Source: Pontixanthobacter sp. CEM42 (GTDB lineage Bacteria; Pseudomonadota; Alphaproteobacteria; Sphingomonadales; Sphingomonadaceae). From it: a stretch of 64,000 nucleotides of DNA. Positions 22,972 through 55,332 of the stretch are shown in pieces. Every line of letters starts with the position of its first letter. The stretch's first letter is position 1. The translations under genes were made by a program, and so were the position numbers. Location: contig NZ_JADQTN010000002.1 in the NCBI RefSeq assembly GCF_017812015.1, forward strand, positions 124,001 to 188,000, read 5' to 3'. The notes beneath the pieces were generated by a model. That model had not been told where the DNA came from, searched no databases, and was given only the letters and a program-made list of their open reading frames with translations.

Positions 22972-23885
22972 TCGCGAGTCAGTGCGGCAACCAGACTTGC
23001 GTAGTTCGAATGGCCTGTCACCGGCTCAACTTGCTCTGCCCATATCGCGTCAAGCTGATCAAACACTGATTTGGGCAGCGGCACCCGCTCTGCATCTTTC
23101 GCGCGGATCTTGGCAGAATCGCTGTCCATAGGAAGGTTTGCTTTTTCGAACGTCATTCGCCGCATCATTGGGTCGGCGAAGGGCGCTTTGTGCTCCATCA
23201 TAAAGTCGCGGCTGGTGCGGTTTTCAACGAGATCAATGGCTGCCTGATCTGCCGCGATGTCGCAGAAGTCGGCAAGGCGGCGGATCGCATCGCGCTTGTT
23301 TTTCAGTACCGCGCGATAGTCCGTCAGCAGCGTGTCCGGCGTATCCCGACGTGCCCACCAGCTGAGCAGATGAGTATAGTAATTGGGTCTATCGGGGCGC
23401 TCCCAAAGCCAAACCGGAACGAATTCCTCAATCGAGATAGTCCCGGGGTCAAAGAACCAACCACTGAAGAAATGATAGAGCGAAACCAAAGCCTCATCGG
23501 GCGGACGCAACGTCACCACATAACGCAATCCGGGTGGCAGGCCCTCATAGTGTAAGTGGCTCTTGAACCCGCGCGGTTTGGCGCGTTGCTCGGCGTTGAT
23601 ATCGAGTTCCAGCTCGGGCGCCGTCTCGATCCATGGGACTACGCGGCTGATGTCGTCAAAATCCATATCACCGCCATGCGGTGCCATACGCAATTGATGG
23701 AACATCTGCTGCATCATCGTGGTGCCGCATTTGCCAAACGGCGTTATTATCACATCGCTGCTTTGTGGATTGTAAGGTTTGGAAGCAGATATCTGTTCTT
23801 GCGACGGGCCAGTCTTGGGCAGCACTTGCACAAGCTCTGCGAAGGACCGTGCACGGCCTGATGAGTGCTCGCCATGATCGGTCAT
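22968..23885 (-). CDS. Sulfotransferase family protein
   Basis: A 305-residue cytosolic enzyme expected to transfer sulfate from PAPS to an alcohol or amine. The 5'-phosphosulfate-binding loop is ITPFGKCGTTMM (about 47-58), and VVTLRPPDEALVSLYHFFSGWF corresponds to the 3'-phosphate-binding region. MTFEKANLP resembles the usual late region of the family. ATG 23885 has AAAGG 7 bases upstream; a longer frame overlaps the divergent lipoprotein region without support. The acceptor substrate cannot be predicted. Confidence 0.85.
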   Translation of the reverse strand: MTDHGEHSSGRARSFAELVQVLPKTGPSQEQISASKPYNPQSSDVIITPFGKCGTTMMQQMFHQLRMAPHGGDMDFDDISRVVPWIETAPELELDINAEQRAKPRGFKSHLHYEGLPPGLRYVVTLRPPDEALVSLYHFFSGWFFDPGTISIEEFVPVWLWERPDRPNYYTHLLSWWARRDTPDTLLTDYRAVLKNKRDAIRRLADFCDIAADQAAIDLVENRTSRDFMMEHKAPFADPMMRRMTFEKANLPMDSDSAKIRAKDAERVPLPKSVFDQLDAIWAEQVEPVTGHSNYASLVAALTRD

Positions 23886-23960
23886 CGCATTACCTTTGCC
23901 TTCTCCATTCGCAATCCGCATATGATTGCCCGCTGCCCACCGGTCTGCCAAGAGGGCGGT

Positions 23961-24617
23961 ATGACAAAAAACACTGCCTTCGTCGCATTGCTCGCCCCGT
24001 TTTCGCTCATCGCCTGTTCGCAGGGTGCCGAGCCGCCGCCAGAAGCCTCACCGCAAGATCAGTTCTGGGCGGCACTCTCCAGCCGTTGCGACAACGCCTA
24101 CCAAGGCAAGCTGGTTAGCAATGACGAAGCTGACACCGATATGCAGGGCGCAGAAATGCTGATGCATGTCCGAACATGCAGCGACGAACAGATCACGGTT
24201 CCGTTCCATATCAAGCAGGCTGGTGCGGAATGGAACCGCTCGCGCACCTGGGTGTTTACCCGGACCGGGAACGGCTCCAAAACAGGAATACGCCTCAAAC
24301 ATGACCACCGGCACGAAGACGGTGAAAGCGACGACGTAACCATGTATGGCGGCGACACTGCCGATGCCGGGACTGCGACCAAGCAGGATTTCCCGGTCGA
24401 TCAGTTCAGTATCGACATGTTCAAACGCGAGGGGCTGGACGTCTCGGTCACTAATATCTGGTCGGTCTCGGTCGATCCTGCTGGAACGGACAATGCGCAA
24501 TATGTGTATCACCTCCAACGCAGCACCGAACGCGGCGCGCCCGAAGATCGCAACTTCCGCGTCATCTTCGATCTGACCAATCCGGTCGACGCACCGCCTG
24601 CGCCGTGGGGATTTTAG
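23961..24617 (+). CDS. Lipoprotein of unknown function
   Basis: A 218-residue lipoprotein: the signal peptide ends in lipobox LIAC with the lipidated Cys near residue 19. The mature protein starts with a proline-rich linker, then a compact domain with a Cys pair (SSRCDNAYQG and HVRTCSDEQ) and RTWVFTRTGNGSKTGIRLKHDHRHEDG. The His/Asp-rich stretch around residues 111-119 is notable but not a recognised metal site. It is divergent from the sulfotransferase gene and followed by the SigF-type promoter. I recognise no family with confidence. Confidence 0.75.
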   Translation: MTKNTAFVALLAPFSLIACSQGAEPPPEASPQDQFWAALSSRCDNAYQGKLVSNDEADTDMQGAEMLMHVRTCSDEQITVPFHIKQAGAEWNRSRTWVFTRTGNGSKTGIRLKHDHRHEDGESDDVTMYGGDTADAGTATKQDFPVDQFSIDMFKREGLDVSVTNIWSVSVDPAGTDNAQYVYHLQRSTERGAPEDRNFRVIFDLTNPVDAPPAPWGF

Positions 24618-24662: not shown

Positions 24663-24723
24663 CCCGGATTCGGGGTGGGCATAATTTCGTGCGTGCTCCG
24701 GTTCATTCGATGGAGAATTTCAC

Positions 24724-25083
24724 ATGAGTACCACATCCAACAAAGCATTCACCGCCGCGCTACTGGCAGGCCTTGCGGTTGCTGGCTGTTCGCAGGCTGC
24801 CGAAGAGAAAGCCATGGAAGGCGACACGATGGCGGACGCATCTGCTGCGACCGAAATGAGCGGCGAAGAAGCGATGACCGATGTGTCTGCAGATGGCGAC
24901 AAAGAGAAATGCTATGGCGTTGCGAAAGCGGGCAAGAACGATTGCGCCGCCGGTCCCGGCACCAGTTGCCAAGGCACCAGCACGACCGACTATCAGGGCA
25001 ATGCCTGGAAATATGTCGATGCAGGTACCTGCCTCGAAATCGAAACGCCCAACGGCAAAGGCTCGCTCGAAGCGATAGCCTAA
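24724..25083 (+). CDS. Orphan bufferin-like (DUF2282) lipoprotein
   Basis: A 119-residue protein. Residues 1-22 form a lipoprotein signal with lipobox AVAGC. An acidic, Met-containing linker runs to about residue 58, and the core matches the DUF2282/BufA pattern: [17 protein letters not shown], then SCQGTS and KYVDAGTC. All four core cysteines are present (63, 74, 82, 103). BufA proteins are ribosomally made copper-binding peptides whose central Cys are modified by BufB (DUF692) with BufC. Neither partner is in this window, and canonical BufA proteins have ordinary signal peptides. Lipid anchoring and isolation are therefore unusual. GGAG lies 8 bases before the ATG. Confidence 0.85.
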
Positions 25084-25129
25084 GGGGATCTGGTCCCTGC
25101 GTTCGGCGCGAAGCCGCACGGCGCAGGGA

Positions 25130-26110
25130 CTACCGCCGAACAGGGGCTTCCTGCCTGAGCACTTCCAGCCCGCGCACGCCGACCGGGATACGCCAGATAT
25201 CGCCGCCACCGCGAAACGTTGTGGTGGCATAGAGCGACAGATGGTCAAACTCGCCCTCGCCAAACACCAGGCTGGCGATATGCGGCATGCCTGCAGCGAT
25301 CACGATCACCGCGCTTTCACCGTCTTTGGCCGCCGGGTCATAGCGCAGCACCCGTCCATTATTGTTGTCAGCAACATAGACGCGGCCCCGCGCATCAATC
25401 GCGAGTCCGTCCGCTCCTTTAGCCTTCACGCCGCCCGCGACCAGTTCGGACACCATGCGCGCTTCACCCGCGCTCATATCCTCGTTCAATTCAACTGCCC
25501 ATAGCTTACCGTCGAGGATAACGGGCCCGACTTGAGAGAATATCTGCGCGACCCAGATCGTCCGATTATCAGGTGAAAGCACCATGCCATTGGGGAACGG
25601 CACACCACTCGTCCACAATTCTGCTACCGCACCCTGCCCGGCCCCTGCAGGCACACGGTAGATTGCATCGAGACCGTCATCGGAGACCAGAAAACTACCG
25701 TCAGGCAAAACCAATATCGCGTTGGGGTCATGAATACCCTGCGCTGCCACGGTTCTGGTCCCATCGGGCGCAACGCGAAAGACTTTGCCGTCCAGCTCCT
25801 GCTCATCGCCATTATTGAAAATATTGGTCGGCCCGAAATCTGCCGCCAGCACATCGCGCGCACCGATACCAGCCTGTCCCAGATTGCTGTCGAGATCGGC
25901 CAGCTTCACCGCATTACCCTCTGTATCGAGCCGCCAAACCGCGCGGTTCGCGCCGACATGGAGTTCCCCGGCACCGTTGAACGTGATGCCCTCCGCCGCT
26001 TCGAACTGATCGGTAAAGAGAATGGGCTCCACTGGATAGGCCTGCTCGTTCGGCAGCGTCGCGCAGGAGGCCAGCATAGCGAGCACGGGCAGCAAAGCAG
26101 CATGTTTCAT
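25130..26110 (-). CDS. Lipoprotein with SMP-30/gluconolactonase-like beta-propeller
   Basis: A 326-residue lipoprotein (lipobox LASC, Cys16). The mature part shows repeated propeller blades: EGITFNGAGELHVGA, DPNAILVLPDGSFLVSDDG, PNGMVLSPDNRTIWVAQ and ADGLAIDARGRVYVADNNNGRVLRY. This pattern is shared by SMP-30/gluconolactonase and related lactonases. A hydrolase of sugar or other lactones is possible, but the substrate is unknown. ATG 26110 was selected by GGAGG 6 bases upstream; an ATG at 26113 is an alternative, and the longer upstream frame lacks signal-peptide character. Confidence 0.8.
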   Translation of the reverse strand: MKHAALLPVLAMLASCATLPNEQAYPVEPILFTDQFEAAEGITFNGAGELHVGANRAVWRLDTEGNAVKLADLDSNLGQAGIGARDVLAADFGPTNIFNNGDEQELDGKVFRVAPDGTRTVAAQGIHDPNAILVLPDGSFLVSDDGLDAIYRVPAGAGQGAVAELWTSGVPFPNGMVLSPDNRTIWVAQIFSQVGPVILDGKLWAVELNEDMSAGEARMVSELVAGGVKAKGADGLAIDARGRVYVADNNNGRVLRYDPAAKDGESAVIVIAAGMPHIASLVFGEGEFDHLSLYATTTFRGGGDIWRIPVGVRGLEVLRQEAPVRR

Positions 26111-55138: not shown

Positions 55139-55332
55139 GGGCGAGGCGATAAGACTGCGCGCCGATGCTGGCAAGCGCCCTGCATCGGTCCTGCACGGCC
55201 CCGTGTGTGTGCGCCACAATTCGCCACGTCTGCGAAACAAAATTTCGTGCCGTGTAACCAATATTGCTGCGGATGCGAAAAGCGTTCCAGATGCACTTTT
55301 GCACCAAACACAATATTTAGGAGTTACCCCAA

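Follow-up and report, generated by a model that had tools for sequence, protein, structure and literature searches.

The described systems closest to the gene studied here are bufferin 1, lipidated Buf2, the lipidated oxazolin and DybA, and stand-alone Buf1 precursors. Bufferin 1 (BufA1) of Caulobacter vibrioides has a DUF2282 core with four cysteines; in Buf1 the central pair is modified and the outer pair forms a disulphide (PMC12452194, Fig. 3 legend), and GTAACC-N16-CGAA is the Caulobacter sigma-F site (PMC3511200). A co-encoded MNIO (BufB) and DUF2063 protein (BufC) are usual for Buf1 rather than strictly defining, as stand-alone precursors without them have been published; modification at a distance was suggested for these, and lipidation, charge inversion and sigma-F sites are not among the traits described in the survey's passages on them (PMC12452194). 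The same survey leaves open whether precursors with no MNIO gene next to them undergo modification in trans or whether some stay unmodified, and mentions preliminary data that make the signal peptide part of BufBC recognition. About 16% of Buf2, a separate precursor family with six or twelve cysteines, are predicted lipoproteins, and the passage with this share sets no Buf1 figure alongside it (PMC12452194). The lipo-NedABC oxazolin and DybA are MNIO-modified RiPP-lipoproteins, as reported from mass spectrometry of NedA and DybA produced in E. coli; for lipo-NedABC a role with copper at the membrane was proposed, and SPII signals were noted in a subset of bufferins (PMC12636315). Unlike the gene described below, these precursors have EGKCG and CPACGMG motifs and lie within their own gene clusters; because the mining in that work took ORFs near MNIO genes, unlinked precursors fall beyond it. 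Lipidated Buf2, stand-alone Buf1, SPII signals in some bufferins and lipidated oxazolin/DybA are already known. In the open-access literature we found no Buf1 family described as both lipidated and unlinked, a weak negative as few subscription papers were covered.

The window (the whole 64-kb stretch of DNA analysed, C2:124001-188000 of the 3.08-Mb genome G000) contains an ATG-initiated gene for a DUF2282 protein (Table 1). The sequence-only reading had recognised the family from its cysteine pattern, and the Pfam profile bears this out (E 2.8e-24). Cysteines 63, 74, 82 and 103 are where that reading placed them and are invariant in alignments A1 (16 rows) and A2 (47 rows). Cys22 is the only other cysteine and stands behind a hydrophobic stretch, in agreement with the lipobox claimed earlier; by this pattern the precursor has the Sec signal peptide of a Buf1 precursor, in a lipoprotein (SPII substrate) version. 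ORF starts and lipoboxes were assigned throughout by our own pattern rule, not by SignalP. Alignment A1 holds 16 of 19 lipobox proteins (excluded were the divergent copy in the tandem of G068, that of G087, and the cysteine-poor G051 protein), and its lipobox cysteine is invariant because the rows were picked for it. With bufferin 1 the gene shares the DUF2282 core, the four cysteines and the sigma-F motif; it differs in having a lipobox in place of the soluble-type signal peptide, an acidic linker and no linkage to BufBC. It resembles lipidated Buf2 in its predicted lipoprotein signal, and stand-alone Buf1 precursors in having no neighbouring MNIO. Given the predicted lipoproteins among Buf2, the earlier statement that known bufferins are soluble was too strong. 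An AlphaFold2 model on 47 sequences was weak (mean pLDDT 59, pTM 0.39), and a search of solved structures gave no credible relative (best E 0.57). The next gene downstream is gluconolactonase-like and convergent, and RNA folding of 25081-25150 gave -35 kcal/mol (z -2.96). Upstream, a 250-aa ORF (23865-24617) with a possible lipobox of its own (IAC) and no Pfam match ends ~20 bp before the promoter motif.

Table 1. Features of the lipobox gene and its surroundings, in window coordinates.
Feature	Coordinates	Strand	Basis
Putative sigma-F (ECF) promoter, GTAACC-N16-CGAA	24637..24662	+	Exact motif match, 61 bp before ATG
Ribosome-binding site, GGAGA	24712..24716	+	Sequence; 7 bases 5' of ATG
Buf1 (DUF2282) precursor, predicted lipid-anchored	24724..25083	+	119 aa; PF10048, 85.3 bits (cut-off 22.4)
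Predicted lipoprotein signal peptide, lipobox V19-A20-G21-C22, +2 = Ser	24724..24789	+	Sequence pattern; aligned with 15 proteins picked for lipobox
Acidic linker, aa 23-61	24790..24906	+	Composition: 12 D/E, 2 K/R and 4 Met in 39 aa
DUF2282 core, aa 60-113	24901..25062	+	Pfam; Cys63/Cys103 = Buf1 disulphide pair, Cys74/Cys82 = Buf1 modified pair (roles from PMC12452194, Fig. 3 legend)
Strong hairpin 3' of stop, possible terminator common with convergent gene, without T run	25091..25132	+	RNA fold

The gene had been called an orphan, with no BufB, BufC or DoxX-type gene in the 64 kb. Inside the window this holds: profiles for MNIO (PF05114) and DUF2063 (PF09836) gave zero matches there, and tblastn of the genome's DoxX, SigF, NrsF, BufB and BufC against it reached E 0.046 at best. 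The search of the whole genome, however, found a complete buf locus at C2 34-38 kb, with bufC-bufB-bufA2 running leftward and bufA1-doxX-sigF-nrsF divergently rightward (NCBIfam MNIO_BufB 383 bits, cut-off 310; BufA2 100 bits, cut-off 60). The gene is therefore an orphan within the 64-kb window only, and the BufB and BufC that usually accompany a Buf1 precursor lie ~112 kb away. DUF2282 matches in the genome were the window gene and C2:36413, and the window protein shares 75% identity over 69 aa with the BufA1 of this genome. MNIO matches lay at C2:34846 and C2:869760, both adjoined by DUF2063 matches. The second MNIO (C2:869.8 kb) was judged an unlikely partner because its neighbours are a Cys-rich precursor of 231 aa and a ferritin-like protein. 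This second MNIO-DUF2063 pair (L006:5326-9475; G000:C2:867.3-871.5 kb) stands behind the 231-aa precursor, which has NSCK-type motifs and scores 20.6 bits with the BufA2 model, below its cut-off; the locus resembles a long Buf2-like system whose partner is unusual.

Our preferred reading, to which we give a probability of roughly 0.7, is that the window gene encodes a lipid-anchored, anionic version of bufferin 1, driven by sigma-F, matured in trans by BufBC and binding copper in the envelope. The sequence-only reading had listed a copper sink on the membrane, a maturase acting in trans and an unmodified protein as options; of these, a lipid-anchored form with maturation in trans fits the evidence best. 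Maturation in trans is favoured because the genome encodes BufB with its DUF2063 partner, the sigma-F motif is common to the window gene and the buf locus, lipobox genes stand beside MNIO genes in relatives, and exactly the second and third core cysteines, the modified-type pair, are lost in the one genus that lacks MNIO. We infer the following course for the window protein. Heavy-metal stress, as in Caulobacter, would cause sigma-F to transcribe the lipobox gene along with the main buf locus; cytoplasmic BufB-BufC would take the precursor and turn Cys74 and Cys82 into thiooxazoles; and the modified precursor would be exported by Sec and acylated at Cys22. The mature acidic peptide would then be anchored in the envelope, most likely in the outer membrane to judge from the +2 Ser, and would bind excess copper beside the soluble, basic BufA1. 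The signal peptide counts against this reading, since it differs from the canonical one although it may be part of what BufBC recognises.

The window protein was compared with 149 genomes of the sphingomonad family and had a match in 49 of these, at 72 places. Four weak places were dropped (G055, G083, G135, G147), and the 68 that were read as ORFs comprised 19 with a lipobox and 49 without. A profile made from 16 lipobox proteins matched 142 of the 397 genomes searched from the family. The lipobox rule was passed by 62 of 235 unique DUF2282 proteins from all loci, and 56 of the 62 come from 50 genomes of the family; 4 of 307 DUF2282 matches were left unclassified, and the lipobox counts are lower bounds because, in the 397-genome search, sequence was retrieved just for places likely to contain the N-terminus. 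Beyond the family, 134 of 385 genomes in a sample of the class had a match, and among the 30 loci listed and 20 further places G449 and G408 passed the lipobox pattern. The best 80 loci of a contig scan gave 79 ORFs, of which six passed, five from Erythrobacter and one from a doubtful MAG (L196). Matches were present in 258 plasmid records, none covering 80% of the query, and spread of the lipobox gene by plasmids was rejected on this count. In a weak tree of the core, built on 56 columns and with 5 starred branches, the lipobox label can be explained by 3 changes, as compared to 37 in shuffles; a single origin of the lipobox form would be compatible with these sequences.

Lipobox Buf1 genes recur in three settings: with an ArgB-type kinase gene nearby (G000, G121), with tgt, and with an MNIO gene. 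Short motifs served to detect neighbouring tgt and MNIO genes, in loci that differed in length. By this means tgt was seen to adjoin 32 of the 56 lipobox genes, with queA on the opposite side in some (the neighbours in G087 gave Pfam TGT 511 bits and Queuosine_synth 403 bits). An MNIO gene lies within ~1 kb of at least 13 of the 56, 11 by motif together with G188 and G236, which the motif missed and which were added from coordinates; the MNIO of G236 was confirmed beside the lipobox gene. G304 and G236 each gave one DUF2282 match, which is the lipobox form beside the MNIO gene. In G041 and G121 the single MNIO gene and a soluble Buf1 gene diverge from each other without an intervening bufA2, and these loci thus stand for an MNIO of this class with only Buf1-type precursors at its locus; the lipobox gene is unlinked in both.

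The exact GTAACC-N16-CGAA motif occurs twice in the window, as compared to 0.05 expected from shuffles. One copy precedes the window gene; the other (55254-55279) falls within a long ORF, away from any start, and is probably due to chance. In the same genome, the exact motif stands 64 bp before bufA2 and 32 bp before sigF, and bufA1 has it with one mismatch 79 bp upstream. With the motif in front and SigF and NrsF encoded in the genome, the window gene is a candidate member of the sigma-F regulon. The copy before sigF (L005:9067-9092; G000:C2:37066-37091) is at the end of doxX, and is a probable internal, self-regulated promoter. Genome-wide, the pattern with gaps of 15-17 had 34 matches and the reversed control 53, showing no enrichment, so the weight of the motif comes from its place and conservation. 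It was found 47-66 bp before the ATG in 22 of the 56 lipobox genes, the window gene among them, with spacers that are unlike one another. The remaining 34 genes, mostly those at tgt loci (26 of 32), do not have it, which weighs against the preferred reading; by setting, 6 of 32 lipobox genes with tgt in the locus carried the motif versus 16 of 24 others. Among canonical Buf1 genes, the motif, exact or with one mismatch, lay within 300 bp in 44 of 49.

The lipobox proteins differ from canonical relatives in charge as well as in the signal peptide. The net charge of the core had a median of -5 in the lipobox form (-11 to 5, n = 56) versus +6 in the canonical form (3 to 10, n = 54), these rows being related and not independent. 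The linker of the window protein had been described as long, acidic and Met-containing. Its acidity is common to lipobox forms (median 26% D+E over 56), but its Met residues are incidental, being absent from this part of 42 of the 56 relatives, and a Met-rich copper site in the linker was rejected for this reason. If Cys22 were a chance cysteine in an ordinary SPI signal peptide, the protein would be unacylated and soluble. The sorting into lipobox and canonical forms by our own rule leaves room for this, but the pattern recurs in 56 family proteins, with Ser or Gly at +2 in 52, and goes together with the acidic linker and inverted charge, whereas in most canonical relatives the signal peptide ends with a site of the A-x-A type; we regard an unacylated Cys22 as quite improbable.

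In E. coli, the +2 rule sorts lipoproteins between the inner and outer membrane. At +2, the 56 lipobox proteins carry Ser (37), Gly (15), Glu (2), Thr (1) or Asp (1), which by this rule points to the outer membrane for most of them. The residue bears on another explanation, that the lipid-anchored form is not a sink but a metal sensor or a partner of the NrsF-sigma-F switch. The sigma-F motif upstream of 22 of the genes would suit such a role, and a membrane location could bring the protein near NrsF; the core is close to BufA1, however, and the +2 Ser suggests the outer rather than the inner membrane, making a sensor or switch partner very improbable.

Substitution rates in the core were low at non-synonymous sites. 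Between the window gene and that of its congener G037, dN was 0.05 and dS 0.85; nine lipobox pairs chosen by us gave dN 0.00-0.05 and dS 0.34-0.85, and four canonical pairs gave dN 0.00-0.07. The low dN relative to dS argues that the lipobox gene is kept by selection, and by these estimates the window gene is under strong purifying selection and not decayed. The sequence-only reading had named a degraded duplicate of a complete bufABC as a case that would speak against it. A complete buf locus is indeed present in the same genome, but the dN and dS values, the intact cysteines and lipobox, the promoter motif and the conservation of lipobox relatives in 50 genomes led us to reject a functionless, decaying bufA1 duplicate, to which we attach hardly any credence.

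MNIO was found in 152 of the 397 family genomes versus 49 of the 50 lipobox genomes (G022: a fragment at a contig end), the exception being G051. By our reading of the lists it is co-present in 139 of the 142 genomes with a DUF2282 match; co-presence thus holds for DUF2282 at large and is not special to the lipobox form. The DUF2282 genomes without MNIO were G051, G128 and G318 (71% complete). G051 and G128 are the only two genomes of their genus that were examined, and the MNIO search gave 0 of 2. Their proteins keep the first and fourth core cysteines and have lost the second and third, and the gene adjoins tgt in both. The G051 lipobox is LSA-C followed by Asp, and that of G128, judged by eye, is the less usual LWG-C, a point against the preferred reading. 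The four core cysteines are present in 55 of the 56 lipobox proteins, all 55 from MNIO genomes. The loss of the second and third cysteines without MNIO fits modification in trans elsewhere; seen in one genus, it counts as one event, which also tells against our reading.

Another view is that the protein is exported unmodified as a plain Cys-containing lipoprotein, serving as a thiol copper ligand or in a redox or structural role. No MNIO was seen nearby in 43 of the 56 by the tests used, some with just 1-2 kb of flank; the signal peptide is altered, and the published discussion allows for some precursors being left unmodified (PMC12452194). Retention of the four cysteines in MNIO genomes, loss of the middle two in the genus without MNIO, and the MNIO gene beside the only DUF2282 match found in G304 and G236 are set against this, and we hold an unmodified lipoprotein to be unlikely.

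Taken at the level of the family, lipid-anchored bufferin 1 matured in trans would form part of a two-compartment bufferin system, which we think somewhat more probable than not: a single BufBC pair would mature the soluble, cationic bufferins and also an anionic Buf1 that is tethered to the membrane and encoded at another site, with the same sigma-F in control in some species. In one genus, loss of MNIO would have been followed by loss of exactly both modified cysteines, with the lipobox and disulphide pair kept in a repurposed lipoprotein. The sphingomonad family offers a direct test of modification in trans versus the unmodified state, the alternative left open by the published survey (PMC12452194). 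Informative genomes are G041 and G121, with one MNIO and both soluble and lipid-anchored Buf1; G304 and G236, with the lipobox form as the sole DUF2282 match found, beside MNIO; and G051 and G128, with MNIO and the modified-type Cys pair gone. The system raises the question of why a cell would maintain, as a second copy of a copper sink, one that is anionic and tethered to the membrane, and bears on how BufBC can act ahead of export if recognition involves the signal peptide.

Several minor observations were made. A second, more divergent lipobox DUF2282 gene stands in tandem behind the first at L107, L289, L284, L104, L276 and L281 (G087, G151, G202, G068, G233 and G388, respectively), and the Cys-poor G051 protein falls near this tandem-copy type in the weak core tree. 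A DUF2282 protein of Microbulbifer rhizosphaerae (L157) has a linker that is charged and rich in Met, together with a possible LPSC lipobox, and may be a separate lipidated Buf1 in the Gammaproteobacteria. Exact sigma-F motifs at L028, L026, L018 and L023 of the window's own genome precede, by 28-50 bp, ORFs that have a ribosome-binding site. These encode a small exported CPTC-motif protein, a glutathione transferase-like protein, an exported, Ala-rich protein of 103 aa and a membrane protein of 115 aa, and are possible members of the sigma-F regulon or chance matches.
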